From the IMG/VR virus record IMGVR_UViG_3300037843_000181, positions 1-29,718 of that record: a stretch of DNA of 29,718 nt; one strand, given 5' to 3'. Position 1 is the first letter of the stretch. The number at the start of each line of letters is the position of its first letter. The notes beneath the pieces are model-generated. The model was not told the origin of the DNA, ran no database searches, and saw only the letters and a program-made list of their open reading frames with translations. This document shows, one piece after another, positions 2,467 through 29,718 of this stretch. The position numbers and the translations under genes were made by a program. The DNA comes from a virus.

Positions 2467-2699
2467 TGAGCGAAGCGGTTGACCACCCTGAACATTACGG
2501 CGGTGCCGATAATCCCTATGAGGCGATCAAGGTAATCGAGGCGTGGGGACTTGGGTTCTGCCTTGGCAACACCGTTAAGTACATCAGTCGCGCCGGGAAG
2601 AAAGACGACACAGACACGCTCACCGATCTCAAGAAAGCCCGTTGGTATCTGGACCGGGAAATCCAAAACAAGGAGGGAAAACAAAATGGAGTTCGTTAA
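2466..2699 (+). CDS. DUF3310 phage protein (SaV-like)
   Basis: The 77-residue product matches the DUF3310 pattern common in phages. It has an N-terminal DHPEHYGG motif, then YEAIKVIEAWGL, then GNTVKYISRAGKKD, and a final DLKKARWYLDREI helix. Phage annotations often call this a nucleotide kinase, but the family's activity is not settled. The start overlaps the preceding stop (TAATG). The end overlaps the thymidylate synthase start by 14 nt. Position next to thyX is consistent with a role in nucleotide metabolism. Confidence 0.85.
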   Translation: MSEAVDHPEHYGGADNPYEAIKVIEAWGLGFCLGNTVKYISRAGKKDDTDTLTDLKKARWYLDREIQNKEGKQNGVR

Positions 2700-3477
2700 A
2701 CCGAAAGTTTTTCACGTTGCACAGACACGAATTATCGAGAGCGGGATGCAGGGCTACTTTGATGCCTTGGGAATCCCAGACTGGGTAACCGACGCGCCAA
2801 CTGATGCAGAGCGATTAGTAGAAGTCATGGGCCGGGGATGCTATCGCTCATTCCAAGCAGGGATGAATAAGAACGTGACGAAGATTCGTGAAGGTAACGC
2901 CGTTTACATAGGCAATATCCTGAACACAAAGCATGGTTCTGTGATTGAATGTGCAACTGACAGTTACATCTTCCTAGACGCCTCTCGTGTGCTGACCCAT
3001 GAACTTGTTCGCAATCGCGTCGGCAATTCCTTTTCGCAGGAGAGTCTCCGCTATGTGCGCCTAGACGCTTTGAAGGGATATTTCCCGCGAGTGTTCGAAG
3101 AGCATCCGAAGAAAGATCAACTGATGGCTTTCTTTAAGGCTACGTTTGAGTTGCTAGAGGGCGCGCAGGTTCAACTGGCGCAGATTCTCGAACTGGACGC
3201 GATTAAGGAATTCGACACTAAGAAGAGACTCACCTCTGCGATGCGACGGCTGGCTCCGATTGGTCTTGCTACGATGATCGGCTACACTGGCAACCACCGC
3301 TCGATTCGTTGGGCAATCGAACAACGCACCGACAAGGTGGCCGAAGAAGAGATTCGGTTGGTATTTGGAGAAGTAGCTGAGGAGCAGCGACGCTGCTATC
3401 CAAATCTTTATCAGGATATGACCGGAGAGATGGTGGACGGATTTATGAAGTATTCGTTCGTCAACTCTAAAATTTAG
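2686..3477 (+). CDS. thyX: FAD-dependent thymidylate synthase ThyX
   Basis: ThyX makes dTMP from dUMP using FAD, NADPH and methylene-tetrahydrofolate. The 263-residue product shows the family core: HGSVIE (83-88), THELVRNR (104-111) and S120-L-R-Y. The family's usual RHR signature reads R109-N110-R111. There are eight rather than seven residues before the conserved serine, and the usual Glu-His after HxSV reads E88-C89. The QESLRYVRL stretch suggests a divergent ThyX subfamily rather than decay, because the frame is intact and full length. AGGAGGG (2671-2677) lies 8 nt before ATG 2686. An in-frame upstream start at 2551 falls inside the DUF3310 gene and is rejected. Confidence 0.88.
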   Translation: MEFVKPKVFHVAQTRIIESGMQGYFDALGIPDWVTDAPTDAERLVEVMGRGCYRSFQAGMNKNVTKIREGNAVYIGNILNTKHGSVIECATDSYIFLDASRVLTHELVRNRVGNSFSQESLRYVRLDALKGYFPRVFEEHPKKDQLMAFFKATFELLEGAQVQLAQILELDAIKEFDTKKRLTSAMRRLAPIGLATMIGYTGNHRSIRWAIEQRTDKVAEEEIRLVFGEVAEEQRRCYPNLYQDMTGEMVDGFMKYSFVNSKI

Positions 3478-3488
3478 ATAGGAGAGGC

Positions 3489-3584
3489 ATGACGTACTTA
3501 TTGGCCGTTGGTTTGATGGCTAGCGGAGTACTCCTGTGGCTGCTTGATTTGGCTTATACGGCAGGCAAGGATAGGGCGCAATGA
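3489..3584 (+). CDS. 31-residue single-span membrane peptide
   Basis: A short frame encodes an N-terminal hydrophobic run rich in Leu, Val, Gly and Trp, then LAYTAGKDRAQ, consistent with one membrane span and a short charged tail. AGGAG lies just upstream (4 nt spacing). The TGA overlaps the next start as ATGA, so translation is probably coupled to the sigma-like gene. No family assigned. Confidence 0.55.
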   Translation: MTYLLAVGLMASGVLLWLLDLAYTAGKDRAQ

Positions 3585-4387
3585 GCATAGACTCGAATCA
3601 CGCGCAGTACGAAGGTACGGCACGCCGTGATCTTCTGGTGCAATCCCGTTTTCGCAACCTGATTTTATGGGAAGCGATGGCTGGACGTAACAGCGCCGAG
3701 GTCTGCCGCGAGATTAAGATAAACCAAGCGGTATTTGGTAAATTGCTTAATTTAAGAATAAGCCCATTTAAGAAATACTGCACAACAGAGGAAAGAACCT
3801 ACACGCGAGCCGCGCTGGCCATAGCGAAGCATTTTAAAATTTTGCCGGAAGATATGTTTCCAGAAAGTCTCTACTCGCTTGAACTTCCTGACAAAGTAGA
3901 ACGCAGCTACGCTAGTGTAGAACTTCTTCCCCTTCTGGCAGCAGCACGGATGCCAACCCTGCTTAGTTCCCCGGAAGAGGAGACTGAGAAAATTGAACTA
4001 AAGTCCGTACTGGAAGAACTTCTTCATACCGTAACACCAAGAGAGGAGCGTATTATACGAATGCGTTTTGGTTTGGAGGATGGCGAAGAACATACGCTTA
4101 ATGATGTCGCTAGCGTTTTTAATCTTACAACAGAGAGAATTCGCCAGATCGAAACTAGGGCGCTGCGCAAGCTGCGCCACCCAAGCCGCTCGGAGAAACT
4201 GACGCATCACTATTACGGAGCTGAAGAATTTTGCCCGTTCTGTAAAGAACGCCTTATGGATGGACAATGTAAAAACATTTTATGTCCCTCAAGGATGGCA
4301 AAACAACTAGCAGAGGAGGCTAAGAAAAAGCACGAGGCCGAGATTCAGAAACTGAAACTCGCGCACCAGCACGGGGAGGCGGCATGA
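3581..4387 (+). CDS. Sigma-70 region 4 protein with HTH and zinc ribbon
   Basis: Residues 140-205 of 268 are a good sigma-70 region 4: TPREERIIRMRFGL, then HTLNDVASVFNLTTERIRQIE and RALRKLRHP, the helix-turn-helix that contacts the -35 element and the RNA polymerase beta flap. There is no region 2, so it should not melt a -10 element as a complete sigma factor does. Residues 25-100 look like a small helical DNA-binding domain. The C-terminus adds a C218/C221/C230/C235 ribbon and a Lys/Glu helix. It may act as a transcription adaptor that redirects host polymerase (inference). The start overlaps the upstream stop (ATGA). Residues 1-14 resemble the N-terminus of the 2176 product. Confidence 0.8.
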   Translation: MSIDSNHAQYEGTARRDLLVQSRFRNLILWEAMAGRNSAEVCREIKINQAVFGKLLNLRISPFKKYCTTEERTYTRAALAIAKHFKILPEDMFPESLYSLELPDKVERSYASVELLPLLAAARMPTLLSSPEEETEKIELKSVLEELLHTVTPREERIIRMRFGLEDGEEHTLNDVASVFNLTTERIRQIETRALRKLRHPSRSEKLTHHYYGAEEFCPFCKERLMDGQCKNILCPSRMAKQLAEEAKKKHEAEIQKLKLAHQHGEAA

Positions 4388-7481: not shown

Positions 7482-7524
7482 CAGACCGCGAAGCCGTGGA
7501 AGGTGGAGTCGCGGTCTGTTTCCT
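7482..7524 (+). terminator. Possible rho-independent terminator
   Basis: CAGACCGCGA (7482-7491) and TCGCGGTCTG (7509-7518) form a perfect 10-bp stem with a 17-nt loop, followed by a short TTTCC. It lies between two genes, 98 nt apart. The weak U-tract leaves open a processing or regulatory hairpin. Confidence 0.45.
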
Positions 7525-7538
7525 GCTTGGAGATTGAC

Positions 7539-7868
7539 ATGAAGGCACACACATTACCGTTTATTTTTCTGCTCTTGGCCGTTCACATCCCACTGGTGCG
7601 CTGCCAGCAACCATCCGCCCCGCCTCCATCGGCACAACCACCGCAGTTGAGCGAGCTTGAGCAAGCAAACCTTAAAATTCTCCAATTGGAGATCAACGAC
7701 ATCAACCGGGATATTAGAGACTACACGGCGCTATTTGATGCTGCGCACCCCGGCTGGTCAATCAATGTGATGAACGGGCAGATATTTCCAAAGCCCGCAA
7801 CGGCTGTAGTTAAACCAAAAGCGTCTACGCCCGTCCCAGCTAAACCAGACGAGACGCCAAAGAAGTGA
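7539..7868 (+). CDS. Secreted proline-rich coiled-coil protein
   Basis: The 109-residue product opens with MKAHTLPFIFLLLAVHIPL and VRC, a Sec-type signal peptide. The cysteine is preceded by Arg, so a lipobox is unlikely. A proline-rich segment, a coiled-coil stretch (LSELEQANLKILQLEINDIN) and a Pro/Lys-rich tail follow. TGGAG lies 6 nt upstream of ATG 7539; an upstream GTG at 7503 is rejected. A spanin-like or envelope role is possible, but the position before the terminase is unusual for lysis genes. Confidence 0.65.
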   Translation: MKAHTLPFIFLLLAVHIPLVRCQQPSAPPPSAQPPQLSELEQANLKILQLEINDINRDIRDYTALFDAAHPGWSINVMNGQIFPKPATAVVKPKASTPVPAKPDETPKK

Positions 7869-12946: not shown

Positions 12947-13288
12947 ATGAACGAAGATCAAGAAGAACGTCTCGTAACCGCTTTCGAGCAAATCGGAAAA
13001 GCCCTGTCCGGGATTCACGAGGAAGCGAAGCACGCAGGAGTACGATATTGGCCGCAACCGCGCGAGTTTCGCGAAACGATTGTCACACGAGTCGAAACGG
13101 ACGAAGAAAGAGAAAAACGGCAACAAGGCGGATGGCGAAGGACTGCGGACCAAGCCATAAATCCAGAAATCGAGGACGAGGAAGCAGAAACCATCGGGCC
13201 AAGAAGCCGCCAGTGGATCAGAGAGCATCCCCCGGAAAGAAATAAAAAGCCAGCGCCGCCGAATGAAAGCGCGAAGGAGGGCGAATGA
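12947..13288 (+). CDS. Hypothetical charged protein
   Basis: The 113-residue product is Glu/Arg-rich and mostly helical or disordered, with a YWPQPREF segment at about 35-42 and a Pro-rich end. AGGA (12936-12939) is 7 nt before ATG 12947, a better spacing than the adjacent GTG 12944. The stop overlaps the next ATG (ATGA). Confidence 0.6.
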   Translation: MNEDQEERLVTAFEQIGKALSGIHEEAKHAGVRYWPQPREFRETIVTRVETDEEREKRQQGGWRRTADQAINPEIEDEEAETIGPRSRQWIREHPPERNKKPAPPNESAKEGE

Positions 13289-13554
13289 ACAGACGATCAT
13301 TTTTCAAATTTCTTGGTATCGGAGCCGCGACGGCTGCAGTTGCTCCGACTATACTTGCCAAATCTGACGCATCACCGCAAACGACTGGCTGGGTTACTCT
13401 ACCGCCGCGTAAGACGTACCAAGCAATTTTTCCTGAGAGCGTAAGAATCTCAGATAAGGAATGGCGGTACCTAGAGTTCCTAAAGAATCGTCAACTGGAG
13501 CAACTCGGCCTGAGTGATCTTCAGAATCTTAAGAAGGTAAAGAGAAATGTCTAG
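13285..13554 (+). CDS. Small protein with Tat-like signal
   Basis: The N-terminus NRRSFFKFLGIGAATAAVAP and TILA is a textbook twin-arginine signal: RR-x-F-F-K, a weakly hydrophobic stretch and an alanine-rich cleavage zone at about residue 25. The mature part (about 65 residues) holds WVTLPPRKTYQAIFPESVRI and a helical Lys/Leu end. Tat export carries folded proteins across the inner membrane, odd for a gene beside head genes. Small Tat-signal proteins do occur in phage genomes, but their role is unclear. It is coupled at both ends. Confidence 0.65.
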   Translation: MNRRSFFKFLGIGAATAAVAPTILAKSDASPQTTGWVTLPPRKTYQAIFPESVRISDKEWRYLEFLKNRQLEQLGLSDLQNLKKVKRNV

Positions 13555-16940: not shown

Positions 16941-17759
16941 TCACACTTCGTCGAATAAAGATAGCTGATCAGAAACAGGCTCCTTCCTCTTTGTGCGGCC
17001 TTGCATGAGGGCGACGATTCTCTTTCGCTCGTTCTCGTTACTCCCATTGCTCTTCCATAAGTTCGCCGCCATCGAAATTACCCACACATTGCCGCTCACA
17101 TACCCAAGTTCGGGCACGATTTTATCGACACTAGGCCAACAACGTCGGTCAGGACCAGCGTTGTAATCCAAGCGAATGTTAGGGAAGATCGGGCATGATT
17201 CTGGCAACGCACCAGTATTTTTATCGAGGAGGTCTAAAGGATTCATGTTAAACGGAATTCCGCTTTTCAGAGCACGGTCCTTGATCCTATATATTTTCTG
17301 TTTTGCCCAGTTCTTTATTTTCCATGCCCTTCTCAGTTCCGCGCGCCGCTTTGGATGTTTTTCGTCGTAAGTTTTTGTATTTTTTTTATTTAGTTCGCTA
17401 ATACGTTCAGGATGTCTCGCTCTGGATTCGCGGGATCGCCGATTGGCCTCTTTCCTATCCTCTGCTTCCGCAACGCACTTTTTGCAGCGTGCTCGGCGTC
17501 CGCTTGGCGTATTTGCGTCTTTACTGAAACTATCGAGAGGCAGGTCCTGTCTGCATTTAGTGCAAACTTTATGGCGCAATTGAAGATCATTCTCTTCAAG
17601 CAGTTCTCGTAGTGTTTTTTGTGGTTCTTGCTTGTCGTCGCTCTCCTCACATGCGGTTTCATCTTCGGTTGGAAGGTCTGGCTCAAATGCAAATTTAACC
17701 ACGGACCAATCTGAAGGAAGTCCTTTTTCGGGGTAGAATGATTTAAGTGGGAGTGTCAT
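16941..17759 (-). CDS. HNH homing endonuclease, antisense
   Basis: The 272-residue product has a zinc ribbon (C66/C69, C92/C95, around DSFSKDANTPSGRRARC) like that of phage HNH proteins. The HNH-type core reads SCPIFPNIRLD (188-198), PSVDKI (209-214) and GYVSGNVWVIS (219-229). Such proteins nick or cut DNA to promote their own spread. ATG 17759 is preferred because GGAGA lies just upstream; the in-frame extension to 17861 adds 34 residues. It is the only convincing minus-strand gene, consistent with a mobile insertion between portal and scaffold modules. Confidence 0.8.
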   Translation of the reverse strand: MTLPLKSFYPEKGLPSDWSVVKFAFEPDLPTEDETACEESDDKQEPQKTLRELLEENDLQLRHKVCTKCRQDLPLDSFSKDANTPSGRRARCKKCVAEAEDRKEANRRSRESRARHPERISELNKKNTKTYDEKHPKRRAELRRAWKIKNWAKQKIYRIKDRALKSGIPFNMNPLDLLDKNTGALPESCPIFPNIRLDYNAGPDRRCWPSVDKIVPELGYVSGNVWVISMAANLWKSNGSNENERKRIVALMQGRTKRKEPVSDQLSLFDEV

Positions 17760-17815
17760 GTCGTTTCTCCGAACGATGAGGCTCTGGCCGGACGTTTCCG
17801 CGTCCGACACTCCCA
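17748..17815 (-). promoter_or_regulatory. Nested inverted repeats over endonuclease start
   Basis: TGGGAGTGTC (17748-17757) and GACACTCCCA (17806-17815) are perfect 10-bp complements. Inside lies CGGACG (17789-17794) against CGTCCG (17801-17806). On the antisense mRNA the start codon region would lie in the closing stem, which could hold back translation. It could also be the scar of insertion. Confidence 0.5.
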
Positions 17816-17919
17816 TTCTACAACACAAGCGATGAGATAGCGAAACACTTTTTGCGGCCATGGAAGGCGCAGGATAAAGAAAAAAGGAACCTTACAATAC
17901 AACATTTATAAAAAAGTTC

Positions 17920-19631: not shown

Positions 19632-20255
19632 ATGTGGGTAAGAGAAAATAAGCCGGGTCTTGAACCAATCAAGGTGCCAACCGCCATTGATGTTGCATGG
19701 GCTGCAGGAATTTATGAAGGCGAGGGTACTTGCTCAATCAAGGGAGGCAGCAGCGGTAAGGGATCGTACAGCACTACCGTTTCGCAGAAGGACCCTGAAT
19801 TGTTGTACAGGCTGCGCGATTTATTCGGCGGATCGGTCAACCTTTATAAAGTTGGAACGAAGAGAAAATTTGAAGTTCATCACTGGCTAGTAAGTGGCGA
19901 CAAAGCAAGAGGATTTCTTGCGGCAATTTACCCTTTTCTCACTTGTAGAAGGAAAGCGCAGATTGATGCAACGAACGCCAGATTTTTTCTGGAGTATGCG
20001 AGTGACCTCCTTCGTATTAACTATTCTGATCCTTGTTCACGTTTCCAGATGATTCTCGCAAAAGTTCAGGAGTTTCGGTCTTTTGTTAAGTACGAGAACA
20101 AGAGTAAGCGCGCAGAGTACACGCGAAACTGGCAGAACAAGAAATATCGCGAAGACCCTGTGTACCGCTCACGAAGATTAGCAGCGAAGAGAGAAGCAAA
20201 GCGATTGAAGCGAGAACAAAAACTGCACGTAGTCGAGATGCAAAAAACAGCATAG
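19632..20255 (+). CDS. LAGLIDADG-type homing endonuclease
   Basis: The 207-residue product contains AWAAGIYEGEG (22-32), the dodecapeptide that forms the dimer interface and carries a metal-binding acidic residue. Only one copy is seen, so it should act as a homodimer. The C-terminus is very basic (RSRRLAAKREAKRLKREQ). It stands alone between scaffold and coat genes, on the same strand. GGGAGG is about 9 nt upstream. No intron or intein ends are visible in the flanking genes. Confidence 0.8.
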   Translation: MWVRENKPGLEPIKVPTAIDVAWAAGIYEGEGTCSIKGGSSGKGSYSTTVSQKDPELLYRLRDLFGGSVNLYKVGTKRKFEVHHWLVSGDKARGFLAAIYPFLTCRRKAQIDATNARFFLEYASDLLRINYSDPCSRFQMILAKVQEFRSFVKYENKSKRAEYTRNWQNKKYREDPVYRSRRLAAKREAKRLKREQKLHVVEMQKTA

Positions 20256-23669: not shown

Positions 23670-24941
23670 GTGAGTTTTCAAAACATGTACCAGCAACTCT
23701 TGGGCCTTCCCGGAATGAATCTTGGACTTGCCAAGACCTTCATCAACGAGGCATTTTCCCTGATCCAAGATGAGCAAGTGTGGAGTTTTCAATGCACGGT
23801 TGGCGGCTGGCTGACTCCAGGTCTACTCGGTGGTTCTTATTCTGGTCAAGGCCAAAATCTATCGTTTAATGCTGGAGCCACCTTTCTCAGCCCCGGAACG
23901 ATCACTGTCCAACCATACACAAATCAGATTACGGGCGATGCCGTAGCAACGGCTGCATGGAATAACGTCACCGCTCCTCCGCTTCTCACACAGCAACAGA
24001 TCAGAGTGCCCTATTTTTCTCTGTACAACATCGTCGCGCAAGGAAACAATGGCACAGTGGCCTACGCGACAGTGTTGGCTAATGGCTCAGGGCAAACCCC
24101 CGGCGTTTACACTACGCCTGTTCTTGATCCAGCCACAGGCGCAGGGGCCACACTGTCGATTACGGTCAATGCAGATGGCACCGTTACGTTGCCGCCTACC
24201 GTATTGACAGTGGGGAGCGGTTACACAACGCCATGCGTTAATTTCTCGCAAGGCGGAACAGCAGCAACGTTCTCCGTGTCGTTGTTTGCCGTGCTAACAA
24301 TAGACCGACCTTGGATGGAGCCTGTTCAGCCTCCGGGAAGCGGCTACATGATATACATGGCATACTTTCCTTCTCCGCCATACTGGAAGCGGTGGTGGAA
24401 TATTAGAGACACCGAGAATAATGTGGATTTGGATTACTCATCGAAAACCCAGATAGACCTCGCTGTTGAGGACGCGGAAAGAACCGTATTCAATGAACCA
24501 ACAAACGTTGCGTACTACGGACAAGATCAACGACCGGGTAGCGCAACGCTAGGCCAGCAACTCTGGGAACTCTGGGGTGGCCCTTTAACCGAATTGCCCT
24601 ACACATTCGGTTGCCAATGCAACTGGCCTCCGCTCGTTAATCCAACCGACACCTTACCATGGCCGCTCAGTGACGAGCTTGTTAAATGGAGAGCACTGGA
24701 AGTTGCCTACCAGTGGGAGGAATCACAAAAGGGCACGGATATAGAGCGTGGCGCTGGCGCTAATTGGCAGTTCTTAACCAAGGCAGCAAGAGAAGAGTAT
24801 GACAAGAGACTCAAAACAACTAGAAACATGGATCGTCACATTGTCGATCTCTACTTCACAAGATGGAATCCCAGTCCGTCTCCCGGATACCAAGACGGAT
24901 TCGCGACTCAAACTGGCCAACTTAATATTGGCACTTTCTAA
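23670..24941 (+). CDS. Head-tail connector or tail accessory protein
   Basis: The 423-residue product opens with helical SFQNMYQQLLGLPGMNLGLA and ends with TKAAREEYDKRLKTTRNMDR. Its middle has a GQQLWELWGGPL, then CNWPPLVNPTDTLPWPLSDE and WRALEVAYQWEES. That Trp/Pro-rich pattern resembles podovirus-type head-completion or tail accessory proteins as I recall them. Residues about 130-205 are the same Gly-rich beta domain as the 21597 product and look inserted. GTG 23670 has AGGAGG 4 nt upstream. Confidence 0.6.
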   Translation: MSFQNMYQQLLGLPGMNLGLAKTFINEAFSLIQDEQVWSFQCTVGGWLTPGLLGGSYSGQGQNLSFNAGATFLSPGTITVQPYTNQITGDAVATAAWNNVTAPPLLTQQQIRVPYFSLYNIVAQGNNGTVAYATVLANGSGQTPGVYTTPVLDPATGAGATLSITVNADGTVTLPPTVLTVGSGYTTPCVNFSQGGTAATFSVSLFAVLTIDRPWMEPVQPPGSGYMIYMAYFPSPPYWKRWWNIRDTENNVDLDYSSKTQIDLAVEDAERTVFNEPTNVAYYGQDQRPGSATLGQQLWELWGGPLTELPYTFGCQCNWPPLVNPTDTLPWPLSDELVKWRALEVAYQWEESQKGTDIERGAGANWQFLTKAAREEYDKRLKTTRNMDRHIVDLYFTRWNPSPSPGYQDGFATQTGQLNIGTF

Positions 24942-24952
24942 GGAGAAATACA

Positions 24953-25354
24953 ATGCCCGCTTATCCCGGTTCCAATCTTGCAACGCTACTTCTCAATAAC
25001 CGCCAAGGATATTTCTGGGACAATGAAACTGTACCTGCCGGACAATATCCGGGGTCGTTGAGTGTGGCGTACCAACTTCAGCGGATCAACCAATCGTTCT
25101 ATCCTTGGGGAGCGGCATTTGAGTTGACTTTTTCAGGAAGCCCAGGAACCTTTGAGGTGGACATCGTTGGCGCTAACACAGACAATCCGCAGAACTATAT
25201 TCAGCTTGGAAAGATCACGGCGGTGACCAGCTATGTGTCCGGATACTATACAGGGCGCTGGGATATGCCGTCGAATATTTGGGTAAAATACGTGGCGGCG
25301 TACATGGCCAGTTTAACGAATCCAGTGAGCGTGACGCTCCAAGTCACACGGTAG
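24953..25354 (+). CDS. Small structural protein, 133 aa
   Basis: AAGGAG is 8 nt before the ATG. The product is beta-rich with many Tyr/Trp/Asn turns (SFYPWGAAFELTFSGSPGTF, GRWDMPSNIWVKYVAAYMAS), consistent with a tail or head-surface subunit. No family recognised. Confidence 0.6.
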   Translation: MPAYPGSNLATLLLNNRQGYFWDNETVPAGQYPGSLSVAYQLQRINQSFYPWGAAFELTFSGSPGTFEVDIVGANTDNPQNYIQLGKITAVTSYVSGYYTGRWDMPSNIWVKYVAAYMASLTNPVSVTLQVTR

Positions 25355-25364
25355 AATGGTGTAA

Positions 25365-28300
25365 ATGAGACGATTAATACAATTAGCACTCTTTATCCTT
25401 GCGGCTCCGCTATTGGGCGTGGCGCAGACAGCCGTTCTTCCCATATATGCTTGTGTTCAAGCTGGGGTTCAAGCGAAGACATCGGGACTGCCATCCTCAA
25501 ACTATCTACAGGGCGTTATTCCGTACTGCACGGTTACGATCTACTTGACGGGCACCACAAATATCGCTACGACCAGCCCTCAGACTCCGTTAACCGCAAA
25601 CACGGACGGCTCGATCCCGCCCATCTTCGCAGCGGTGAATCAGGGCTACGATGTGGTGCTCAGCGGCGGAATACCGCCCAATACCTACCCCGCTCCAGTA
25701 ACGCTCACAGGAGTGTATCCAGGGTTTGAGTTTAGCGGCGGCAGCGCCAGCGGCTACCCTCCGGGCGGTTCGAGCACGAACACACAATATCGTGTAACCA
25801 GTACGACATTTGGCGGTGAAACTGAGATTTATATTGCCCCATCCGGGGATGCGAGTGGCGCGACAGATCAGACCAATATTGCAGCAGCAATAACCGCTGC
25901 ATGTGCCAGTGGTCCACCATCGCCAATTTCTATTAAGCTTGGCTCTGGTATCTTCTACGTGACTGGAGATTTCCCTGTTGGCTGTCCATTTGATTTTCAG
26001 GGAGCAGGTAAAGGCAACACGTTTATTGAGTTTGTCACCACATCTAGCAACTTCATTACAGCCAACTACGGTGGAGGCGCTCTGAATTACGAATCTTATG
26101 GTGCGATGTGGAGCGACTTCTCGTTGCTGATGAAATCTGGAGTAACAGCCGCATCGGGGGATGCTTTTATTCTCTCCGGACTTAACGATGAGCATTATCT
26201 GGCACAACTGCATATCAATCGTGTTGCCATGTATGGACTCTGGGGAGGTTTTAGCACTGGAGCCAATATGGTGGAGAACTGGTTTGAGCATAACTACTGT
26301 GCGTTTTTCGTATCAGGTGGTGACGGGTGTCTTTCCTATGATACGGTTCAACCGGGCGGGGACTTCCACTTTGATTTCAACGAGGCTGTGGGACCGTATA
26401 CCGGGTACACGGTTCTGCAAGGAGATGTCCTTCACTTTAACGGGAACAAGCTGAATGGCTCCCCGTTCCTTTTTTACTCCAACACGTCGTCGATTATAGA
26501 TGTTCTTCTCACAGATGAATCGTATGAGGGAACTCAAGCCTGCGGCATTGATTTCGGAACCGGAGGAGCCCGGATTGCAAACGTAGTTCTCAGTTCTGTT
26601 GAAATCGGAGCTGGCCCTGTGTACGGAACCACCGCCCTCTGCCATGTTACGAATCCCCAGCTAACAGGATTAAGCGGTTGCTATTCTTTTTCAGCGCAAA
26701 ATGGGGGAGCGCCAACCTGTATCGGAGCGCCGTATAATCCTAATCAACTAGCGACGTACAATTTCAGCGTCGTCGAGAATCCGCTCTCTTACAGTGGCAT
26801 GTTCACAGCAGCAGGAACCGGCGCATCACTTCCCCAAGTACCAAGCGCGGGCATTTGCGAACCAGCATCAACTTCCAGTGGTTCCAGTGCGGTGGCGACA
26901 GGTTTTGGCAGTTGGCCCAATAGCCAGTCTACAGCAGTAGTGCTTGCAGCTCTCGGAGGTCAAGGGAGCATTGGGCTGATTCTGAGAGCTTCAGCAACAA
27001 CTGAAACGCTGTATCAGGTAAACCTTGACGGAAGCGCCAACTTGGATGTTTACGCCGTAGTTGCAGGAAGTGCTCACCAGATTGGCTCAACAACATTTAT
27101 ACCAACAGCAAATCAAATGTGGGAAGCATCCGTCGTAGGAACCACTTCGCCCATCATTAACGTCTATCTAAATGGGGCGCTTTTCTACTCGGTGACAGAT
27201 ACGACCTATGGGGCTTCGATTACATCCGGAAGCCCTGGGTTTGCCATTAGGGATAGCGAGGCAATCACAGATACGCAAATCAGCAGTTGGACGGGCGGTT
27301 CTGCGGGCGGAACCATTCTTGCAACCAGCAATCTCTCCGACTGGACGAACAGCGGCGTGGCGAACGGCCTCCCGGCAGTCTGGAACTCAGGCACGAGCAA
27401 ATGGACACCTAGCGGCACTATCGACATGACGTTGGTTAATTCCGCAGGCTACCAATGCAGCGGCTCCTGGGGCACAAACGGTCAAGTCCTTTCCACCACT
27501 GGCTCAGGCTGTCAGTGGCTGAACAATGGCTTCTTCACGGCGGGAGGCGACCTGAGTGGTACTGCCTCCTCACAAGAAGTCACCGGAATCCTGAACAACG
27601 TACTGCCTTCAATAAATATTGGCTATTTGAACTGGACAGGAACACAGTGGGCGTTCTCTAATCCTGCTGGCGCGGGCAACACAACTTCGACCTCGCTCAC
27701 AAGCAACCGGCTGCCCAAAGCAAACGGCACTAACTCGATCATCAATTCGTCTATTTCTGATGATGCGACGACGGTTTCCACAACCGAAATCTTCTCGGCG
27801 GGTAGCTTCAAAGTGGGTTCCAATGCCGTCATTCCTTCTACGGTTACCGGTTACAACGGGAACGCCAGCGGAGTGAAGATTCCATTAGCAGTGGCGTTCG
27901 CGGGGTCATCCGGGGCGGTTGTCTGCGACGACGGCAACCACAATCTAACGGAATCTGGATGCAGCGCCGGAGCGGTGGCCTCTGTTAGCAACTCCGACAG
28001 TACTCTGACTATCTCCCCGACGACCGGCTCCGTGGTCGCCTCGCTCAATCTCGCGCACGCGAACACATGGACCGGGCTCATCACCAGTTCGGCAGGAATC
28101 AACCTCTCTGGTGCCTCTGCTCCGCTTGAATTGGCCGGAAGCGCAGGAACTAGCGGAAACTGTCTGCTTTCGGCGGGAGCCGGAGATACACCAACTTGGG
28201 GAGCTTGTAGCGGAGGAAGCGGCGGGGACAGCATTACCAGTCCTAATTCCACGCTGACCGTAGGAGGGTCGTCAAGCGCAACTACGCTGGACCTTGTAGG

Positions 28301-29690
28301 CTCGGCGGGAGAAATCATGGCCGGGGCTACTCCCGCATTGACCTACACTCCGTCTCTGGGAAAATCCGGCACGGCTGGGTCACTTTCCTTGTATCCCTCC
28401 AGTGGAAATTTTACCACGACTCTCAGCAGTGCGGCGACAGCAAGCAACACGGTAAAATTCTTCGCCACTGTCCCGACAAACCTTGATTTGTTCTACTGTG
28501 CGGTATCGACGACAACTTGTACTCTGACCGATGCCGGATATGCCTATAACGCCATCCCCTTCAGCGACTTAAACGGCAATCTTGCAACAAGCCAAGGCCC
28601 GAGCAGTCTGACGGGAATCCTTTACGACACTACAGGAACGATTAGTCAGTCTACGGCGGCAGAGTTAGGTACGCTTATTGACTTGCCTCAGTATTCTGTT
28701 CCCTATAGTGCTGGAACGACCTCGGCCCTGACGGATGTCGCCTCGCCCACTGTCAATGGTACCTATACTCTTGGATGGGTGGTAACCGGAAGCGCGGCTC
28801 TCGCGCCGACCGCTATCAACGCAAACACGCTGGTAGTAAGCAGTGCTTCCACGGCGACCAATGCAACCAACGTAGCGACGACGACCACGACCAGCAACAC
28901 GGCCTACTACATGGCGTTGCTGACAGATAACGCGACAGAAAATCAGGGCGTTTTAGTGGGCTCTGGGCCGACCTACAACCCGTCGACGGGGGCCTTCACG
29001 CTCGGTGGCTCGACTCATGGTCTATCGATACCGGCAGGAACCGCTGTCTCAGGTGCGTCTGGTTCTGTGATCTATGCTTCCGACTCCACAAATGGATACG
29101 GAGAGATCAATGAGAACAATACTGGTTTGTCCAGAATCTGCACGGCGGCGAATGGAATCTGTGCTCCTGCCAGTGGCATTCCTATCGCAGACGTGGGGAG
29201 CGCGGGATTGAGTGGATCGGGTGGTGTATCCATTGCAGCGACAGGAGCAATTTCACTTGCCTCTATCCCAGGCTCGGCCATGACAAATAACACCATAACA
29301 GCCACGCAGCTTGCCGCCCAGTATAGCAAGGGAGCCTGCACGGAAGTTTGGGGAGGTACTGGAACCAGCAACGTGCTGCAATCTGGCGACGATGCGATCT
29401 CGAACAACACCTGCTACAACGACTCCGGCGTAACTCGAACCATCACGGCGGTCAAATGCCGTAGTGATTATTCAAGCAACACGACAACAGTCAACCCGAC
29501 ATTTGGCAGTGCCGGAACAGGAACGACGATCCTGAGCGGTGCTCTCACTTGCGGAAACTCCTACGCATATTCCTCCAGCGGCACAGTGAGCAACGCAAGC
29601 TGGACCACTGGAACTGGAATCGACCCAGCAATGGGGACGCCGGACACGCACAGCACCAGTCTGGCAATGATTGTGGAGTACACCTACTAA
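25365..29690 (+). CDS. Giant tail fibre/tailspike with signal peptide
   Basis: The 1441-residue product begins MRRLIQLALFILAAPLLGVA, a Sec signal with a likely cut after A20. Residues about 155-400 read as a pectate-lyase-type beta-helix (EIYIAPSGDASGATDQT, GSGIFYVTG, FQGAGKGNTFI), the usual receptor-binding or polysaccharide-cutting fold of tailspikes. A jelly-roll domain (LamG-like) lies at about 520-650. The remainder is Ser/Thr/Asn/Gly-rich repeat stalk with trimeric-fibre phrases such as LPKANGTNSIINSSIS. No clear ribosome site precedes ATG 25365. The long frame excludes frameshift. Confidence 0.8.
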   Translation: MRRLIQLALFILAAPLLGVAQTAVLPIYACVQAGVQAKTSGLPSSNYLQGVIPYCTVTIYLTGTTNIATTSPQTPLTANTDGSIPPIFAAVNQGYDVVLSGGIPPNTYPAPVTLTGVYPGFEFSGGSASGYPPGGSSTNTQYRVTSTTFGGETEIYIAPSGDASGATDQTNIAAAITAACASGPPSPISIKLGSGIFYVTGDFPVGCPFDFQGAGKGNTFIEFVTTSSNFITANYGGGALNYESYGAMWSDFSLLMKSGVTAASGDAFILSGLNDEHYLAQLHINRVAMYGLWGGFSTGANMVENWFEHNYCAFFVSGGDGCLSYDTVQPGGDFHFDFNEAVGPYTGYTVLQGDVLHFNGNKLNGSPFLFYSNTSSIIDVLLTDESYEGTQACGIDFGTGGARIANVVLSSVEIGAGPVYGTTALCHVTNPQLTGLSGCYSFSAQNGGAPTCIGAPYNPNQLATYNFSVVENPLSYSGMFTAAGTGASLPQVPSAGICEPASTSSGSSAVATGFGSWPNSQSTAVVLAALGGQGSIGLILRASATTETLYQVNLDGSANLDVYAVVAGSAHQIGSTTFIPTANQMWEASVVGTTSPIINVYLNGALFYSVTDTTYGASITSGSPGFAIRDSEAITDTQISSWTGGSAGGTILATSNLSDWTNSGVANGLPAVWNSGTSKWTPSGTIDMTLVNSAGYQCSGSWGTNGQVLSTTGSGCQWLNNGFFTAGGDLSGTASSQEVTGILNNVLPSINIGYLNWTGTQWAFSNPAGAGNTTSTSLTSNRLPKANGTNSIINSSISDDATTVSTTEIFSAGSFKVGSNAVIPSTVTGYNGNASGVKIPLAVAFAGSSGAVVCDDGNHNLTESGCSAGAVASVSNSDSTLTISPTTGSVVASLNLAHANTWTGLITSSAGINLSGASAPLELAGSAGTSGNCLLSAGAGDTPTWGACSGGSGGDSITSPNSTLTVGGSSSATTLDLVGSAGEIMAGATPALTYTPSLGKSGTAGSLSLYPSSGNFTTTLSSAATASNTVKFFATVPTNLDLFYCAVSTTTCTLTDAGYAYNAIPFSDLNGNLATSQGPSSLTGILYDTTGTISQSTAAELGTLIDLPQYSVPYSAGTTSALTDVASPTVNGTYTLGWVVTGSAALAPTAINANTLVVSSASTATNATNVATTTTTSNTAYYMALLTDNATENQGVLVGSGPTYNPSTGAFTLGGSTHGLSIPAGTAVSGASGSVIYASDSTNGYGEINENNTGLSRICTAANGICAPASGIPIADVGSAGLSGSGGVSIAATGAISLASIPGSAMTNNTITATQLAAQYSKGACTEVWGGTGTSNVLQSGDDAISNNTCYNDSGVTRTITAVKCRSDYSSNTTTVNPTFGSAGTGTTILSGALTCGNSYAYSSSGTVSNASWTTGTGIDPAMGTPDTHSTSLAMIVEYTY

Positions 29691-29718
29691 TGAAATACTG
29701 TCTTTTCATTATCGGGAT
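29690..29718 (+). CDS. Start of next gene, truncated by window edge
   Basis: An ATG overlapping the fibre stop (TAATG) opens MKYCLFIIG, a Lys followed by a hydrophobic run like a signal peptide or membrane anchor. Only nine codons are visible. Overlap suggests coupling to the fibre. Confidence 0.45.

Follow-up and report, generated by a model that had tools for sequence, protein, structure and literature searches.

Does a phage spike gene that opens with a Sec-type signal peptide (SP) point to virion parts matured outside the cytoplasm? Tailed phages are usually taken to make their receptor-binding proteins, and to attach them, inside the cytoplasm. The question is raised by the open reading frame (ORF) at 25365-29690 (+) of IMG/VR record IMGVR_UViG_3300037843_000181, a linear virus record of 29.7 kb whose end falls nine codons into the gene that follows this ORF; all 29,718 nucleotides were analysed and are called the window here. 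The ORF was confirmed: it starts with ATG, encodes 1441 amino acids (aa) and is preceded by a conserved 133-aa gene and a tail gene. Its product, labelled a fibre in the initial annotation, is better called a tailspike-type protein and is best explained as a podovirus-type tailspike with a cleavable Sec SP, a head-binding-type domain, a variable body and a Ser/Thr/Gly-rich shaft. Judged from sequence, export signals on the spikes of this phage group are well supported. We give a slightly better than even chance to a route in which these tailspikes would be Sec-exported, processed, disulfide-locked in the periplasm and joined to virions at or after lysis.

The N-terminus of the ORF, MRRLIQLALFILAAPLLGVA followed by QTAV, has a positive n-region, a hydrophobic core and a V-x-A/Q site (GVA/QT, with the slash at the cut). 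It scored 4.81 with our own rule-based predictor (not SignalP), which found an n-, h- and c-region and small residues at -3 and -1 and placed the cut after residue 20. The predicted Sec type I SP of 20 residues spans 25365..25424 (+), with the cut between 25424 and 25425, in agreement with the aligned SPs of relatives. No Shine-Dalgarno motif was found upstream of the start codon (score 0). The initial annotation had noted a Sec-type signal on this fibre-sized protein; that observation holds, and the signal recurs in many related phages, as the counts below document.

A domain of about 100 residues follows the predicted cut (residues ~21-122, 25425..25730, +). Its profile, built free of the SP, matches the extreme N-termini of phage fibres, spikes and depolymerases at 42-55 bits; bits are quoted because the E-values were computed over just 65 sequences. 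The matching N-termini belong to phages of Escherichia, Serratia, Klebsiella, Erwinia and Oceanospirillum (e.g. the MTx tailspike and the ECOO78 depolymerase), and 10 phage relatives were fetched from match lists of 14 and 18 records that included the Tunturi phages described below. Nine of these genes, counted as annotated even though the records of two (L093 and L094) say "hypothetical protein", begin at the domain itself, with an SP call in 0/9 and the full pair of conserved cysteines described below in none; the unannotated KT1 gene with this domain likewise had no SP call. Using an AlphaFold2 model of the domain (pLDDT 74.3, 25-sequence alignment), Foldseek placed Pan3 and Pam1 tail-complex chains at ranks 1-3 (E 0.09-0.10) and P22 at rank 7 (E 1.0), and structural realignment gave Z 8.3 for Pan3, 7.3 for Pam1, 6.9 for Sf6 and 6.7 for P22, all within the first five rows. 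The same Pan3 and Pam1 spikes ranked first in a PDB profile search (E 0.06-0.38). Among predicted viral structures, phage proteins of the pectate-lyase and tail-collar kinds matched best (E 0.004). Because two methods agree and annotated homologues match, we assign the domain, with moderate certainty, to the podovirus tailspike head-binding type. Pfam and PHROGs gave no match to the whole 1441-aa spike at E up to 0.1, and Pfam at E up to 10 gave none for the window N-terminus and only chance-like matches for two of three relatives.

A search with the domain returned 95 unique matches, 52 of them with an SP upstream, many being chance repeats; those kept at E below 1e-10 amounted to 59 proteins, or 56 non-redundant ones, with the window gene present as copy L001. 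An SP is present in 54 of the 56 (49 strict calls and five by a relaxed rule that also passes 6/133 upstream genes), and an A-x-A/Q-type site lies at most 14 aa from the domain in 35/56. Relatives of the portal, capsid, tail or neighbour genes of the window or Tunturi 1 are encoded in 39/44 of the loci fetched with the domain, and the spike gene sits in the structural cluster after the portal, capsid and tail genes (window gene order, which Tunturi 1 matches). Export through the twin-arginine translocation (Tat) system was rejected, its SRRxFL-type motif being found in 0/49 SP proteins; the window protein has RR at residues 2-3 and the motif is absent. One SP-bearing spike of 1596 aa (L010:15449-20239) includes a GDSL lipase domain that scores above the cut-off (E 3.2e-6).

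How systematic the signals are was assessed with a bait blind to them, the conserved 133-aa gene at 24953..25354 (+), which has no SP and has relatives in other loci. It brought in 35 IMG/VR loci, reduced to 23 representatives, window included. One SP predictor and one ORF caller were used on both sides of the bait for genes of at least 200 aa, with an SP defined by a score of at least 4; the greedy ORF caller defines the genes, and the upstream set thus contains some spurious ORFs. Across all loci an SP was called in 58/114 genes downstream of the bait versus 1/208 upstream, and across the representatives in 37/71 versus 1/133 (Fisher 1e-19; 42/71 versus 2/133 at any score). At least one downstream SP gene occurs in 17/23 representative loci and two or more in 12/23, while five of the six loci without one at score 4 end less than 3 kb from the bait. 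When the downstream genes of the 23 loci are limited to those of 350 aa or more, the start passes in 30/51 and internal windows of the same genes in 0/455, so low charge does not explain the calls; shuffled N-termini of these genes passed in 52/2550 trials. The predictor rejected the PhoA control and gave one false positive, inside the SP-less spike of L067.

Two cysteines of the mature N-terminal domain, Cys30 (25452-25454, +) and Cys55 (25527-25529, +), are coupled to the SP. Among the 23 bait-fetched, non-redundant domain proteins, an SP is present in 22, each of which has both cysteines; the sole SP-less protein, L037, keeps the second and lacks the first. Over all 56 proteins the pair is found in 52/54 with an SP versus 0/2 without and 0/9 proteobacterial or marine phage relatives (Fisher 0.004 and 9e-11), a statistic that is biased because the viral scan pattern contained Cys55; the 23 bait-fetched proteins are unaffected by this bias. 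The related sequences are non-independent and the SP-less cases few. None of the 11 SP-less relatives (L037, L067 and the nine phage relatives) has the pair in full, and the nine show a gap in the first Cys column and an Ala in the second.

Cysteines are also enriched and clustered further along these proteins. Their median share is 1.86% in SP-bearing spikes versus 0.57% in upstream proteins and 1.14% in other large downstream genes, the last contrast being conservative because this "no SP" group (21 genes) still includes visible SPs that score below 4 or start late. A cysteine neighbour within 30 residues is seen at a frequency of 0.81 in SP spikes versus 0.62 under random placement, with an excess in 46 of 50 proteins (SP-less L037 included), and 20 upstream proteins show no clustering (0.73 observed versus 0.75 random). 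A second gene family directly behind the bait comprises eight SP-less proteins that start MSGQ and contain 0.39-0.72% cysteine (one short fragment 1.19%); its SP versions (0.62-2.42%) have an extra two-cysteine module ahead of the same common domain, the strict rule labelling L034, L032 and L020 "no SP" though an SP is visible. The pair and the clustering may thus be an independent sign of export, coupled to the SP.

Two sister phages, L067 and L076, offer a natural swap. Their capsid proteins are 94.9% identical and other neighbours 81.1, 77.2, 76.7, 65.9 and 61.5% (the last two over parts), whereas the spikes in the same slot share only 39.8%. The L076 spike, an ORF of just 215 aa, has an SP (score 4.74) and both cysteines; that of L067 begins MFKIQGWVEKG and has no SP and neither cysteine. 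When the two spikes are aligned, L067 residue 5 falls on L076 residue 30, and therefore the SP extends the natural N-terminus. On the simplest reading of the alignment, the forms with and without an SP would serve the same virion site in the two phages. L037 is a second phage in which none of three large downstream genes has an SP.

A tblastn search of 50,697 phage records with the whole 1441-aa protein (E up to 1e-5) gave no matches other than Tunturi 1 and 2, which matched through gp12 with 44.1% identity over residues 1-109, SP part included. These are podovirus isolates of Tunturiibacter (Acidobacteriota), according to the searched text of PMC11924767. The window shares 26-28% identity with Tunturi 1 in TerL, portal, capsid and tail proteins (27% to gp11 for the tail gene, 23670..24941, +), whose order is the same; it therefore probably represents a podovirus whose soil host is acidobacterial or similar. 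SPs were found on gp12, 13, 14, 16 and 17 of Tunturi 1 and 2, and none on the terminase, portal, capsid and tail gp11 proteins or on the later structural proteins included in the selected coding sequences (27/106 features in Tunturi 1, with gp17 ended by the locus edge, and 10/107 in Tunturi 2). Tunturi 3, from the same isolation strain, and Tunturi 4 had an SP in 0/22 and 0/13 selected coding sequences, taken from the first 50 kb (of 147 and 115 features, respectively). The SP is therefore a trait of phage lineages and not host-imposed. Tunturi 1 gp12 is annotated as hypothetical; genes of this cluster annotated as tail spike or virion structural are among those with an SP. For gp14 of both phages we used a start codon 33 bases further downstream than annotated; in Tunturi 1 this is a TTG that gives a compact SP (L002:15931-15964).

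The proposed route starts from what can be read in the sequences, namely the SP architecture, the kinship of the next domain, the systematic presence of SPs on spike genes and the coupling of SP and cysteine pair. From these we infer that the spike is in fact exported and cleaved, forms disulfides and is present on the virion, and also when it docks. During infection the spike would be exported to the periplasm through the host Sec system and processed by signal peptidase I; it would fold there, be locked by disulfides and dock on the tail hub of spikeless particles once lysis opens the inner membrane. In vitro, spikeless P22 particles can receive their spikes in a final step. Spike folding is treated in part of PMC9576892. 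The chances seem evenly balanced for the wider proposal of a two-compartment virion in soil podoviruses, whose cytoplasmic heads and hubs would be joined to periplasmic, disulfide-locked spikes when the inner membrane opens, whose particles would stay spikeless and unable to bind receptors until release, and whose trait could be switched by a spike swap.

The initial annotation had listed assembly outside the membrane, a released depolymerase and a membrane-interacting anchor. Its interpretation is partly borne out: the premise stands, and assembly outside the cytoplasm fits best of the three options, given an SP right before a head-binding-type domain, two or more SP genes in over half of the representative loci and an SP-less allele in the slot. 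The released depolymerase is still a live rival, in a broader form that we consider unlikely: the proteins would be exported but absent from the virion, acting, whether released or bound to the cell, as enzymes or decoys that remove exopolysaccharide or cover receptors, aid release and prevent re-adsorption, the head-binding-type domain being a relic or a trimeriser. The SPs themselves and the GDSL hydrolase domain of one relative would suit such a role, and a bacterial exported tailspike-like enzyme, WceF, exists (described in part of PMC7949094); the SP immediately preceding a virion-attachment-type domain, the SP-less allele of the sister phage and the tail spike or virion structural annotations among the SP genes of the Tunturi 1 cluster argue against it. 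We hold it improbable that the signal is weak or bypassed, with most copies cytoplasmic (or through a second start or another protease) and assembly ordinary. In-frame start codons do lie near the cut in 19/49 proteins (TTG17 and GTG19 in the window), but none of these 19 follows a Shine-Dalgarno motif versus 21/49 SP starts, which leaves a second start yielding a cytoplasmic form unsupported, and the cysteine pair and clustering track the SP.

Retention of the hydrophobic N-terminus, which would tether the spike to a membrane while the phage adsorbs or infects, is very unlikely: a hydrophobic core exists, but the A-x-A/Q-type processing sites of many relatives and the start of SP-less relatives at the domain make the anchor a poor fit. 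Even less credence goes to an artefact, that is, false SP calls from low-charge spikes, or cellular genes. Charged residues have a median of 7.3% in SP-bearing spikes versus 19.9% upstream, and the relaxed rule does let some upstream genes pass; against this stand the internal windows, none of which passes, the other controls and the occurrence of the pattern in complete isolate genomes and many contigs. Two scans of genome contigs gave 37 and 9 pattern stretches, none confirmed as a relative, with narrow patterns that mostly required the Cys. Besides the GDSL domain, several observations weigh against periplasmic maturation of virion spikes. The fold and PDB profile scores are weak taken singly (E 0.09-0.10, E 0.06-0.38, Z 8.3-6.2), and in the realignment an unrelated chain also reached Z 7.3, with Fn3 domains from 6.5 downward. 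Of the large downstream genes, 34/71 score below 4; the cleavage site of L076 is ambiguous; the SP proteins L073 and L082 lack the full pair; L042, of the second family, has an SP yet only 0.62% cysteine; and the total cysteine count is even in only 36/56 ORFs, some of them incomplete.

Behind the N-terminal domain, the window protein continues with a variable body (residues 130-490, 25752..26834, +) that by eye resembles the start of a pectate-lyase-type beta-helix, a candidate assignment. A search of the fetched loci gave no relative of residues 126-490 among the matches listed, and a single-sequence structure model of residues 144-493 had a mean pLDDT of only 39.9, too low to judge a beta-helix body. 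A Ser/Thr/Gly-rich shaft with closely spaced cysteines follows (residues 655-1300, 27327..29264, +). The C-terminal domain (residues 1300-1441, 29262..29687, +) also occurs, among the matches listed, in a protein of L023/L055 with a different N-terminus (E 1.9e-62). Such a mosaic domain pattern is typical of receptor-binding proteins.

The initial annotation had also taken two other genes of the window for secreted proteins. The next gene (29690..29718, +), which overlaps the spike stop codon as TAATG and is ended by the window edge, begins MKYCLFIIG; this fits an SP but is too short for a call. For the gene at 7503 (or 7539) the claim is weak: MKAHTLPFIFLLLAVHIPLVRCQQ contains a hydrophobic stretch, yet its c-region includes an Arg, and the predictor rejected it (as it did PhoA). 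By eye only, this gene (7503-7868, +) resembles two related small proteins of other loci (L034:11882-12157 and L020:17404-17682) that combine an SP with a Gln-rich, coiled-coil-like body and are possibly a periplasmic chaperone or spanin. Another small protein of the window (13285-13554, +) starts MNRRSFFKFLGIG, which looks like a Tat signal (Pfam TAT_signal, E 0.0011, not reaching the cut-off); similar N-termini occur in L012 (17370-18038), L015 and L038, and twin-arginine starts recur in related phages. The window further encodes a ThyX-type thymidylate synthase (2551-3477, +; Pfam Thy1 E 1.9e-27), a protein that contains a sigma-70 region 4 domain (3581-4387, +; Pfam E 1.2e-16) and, beside the capsid and scaffold genes, two inserts that look like endonucleases by eye (19632-20255, +, no Pfam match; 16941-17861, -, Pfam Stc1 sub-threshold).

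If the proposed route is correct, virion assembly gains a second compartment and spikes may use disulfides; the Tunturi 1 and 2 isolates allow direct testing. Pipelines that treat an SP as the sign of a cellular gene will misfile these spikes if they are exported. In a study of phage targets of diversity-generating retroelements, missing SPs were read as support for phage origin (in part of PMC6199706). Part of PMC5723332 gives three SPs in two Bacteroides phages, with the proteins not named, a possible precedent. SPs are unmentioned in the searched text of the Tunturi paper (PMC11924767), where "signal" occurs only in a reference. We found no report of Sec-exported tail spikes in literature searches that covered few subscription journals; a Sec-type SP on podovirus tailspikes appears to be unreported, while the tailspike type itself is known.

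Among known systems, Pantoea WceF is an exported trimeric tailspike-like beta-helix enzyme, but of a bacterial gene and with a Tat signal, whereas here the gene is a phage gene and the signal Sec-type (part of PMC7949094). Lambda Lom, a phage gene with an SP, lies between genes for spike and fibre, but its product is a host outer-membrane beta-barrel and no spike (part of PMC12309495). The gp12-gp17 genes of Tunturi 1 and 2 share gene position, SP and domain with the window, although the phages are distant, as the identities of their TerL, portal, capsid and tail proteins (26-28%) indicate. The spikes of the Escherichia, Serratia, Klebsiella, Erwinia and Oceanospirillum phages have a homologous domain but begin at it, without an SP or the full pair. 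The P22, Sf6, Pam1 and Pan3 tailspikes resemble the window protein in gene place and in the N-terminal domain, for which they ranked first or near first by fold or profile. None of these four is known to carry an SP. Compared with them, the window protein adds an SP and a cysteine pair.

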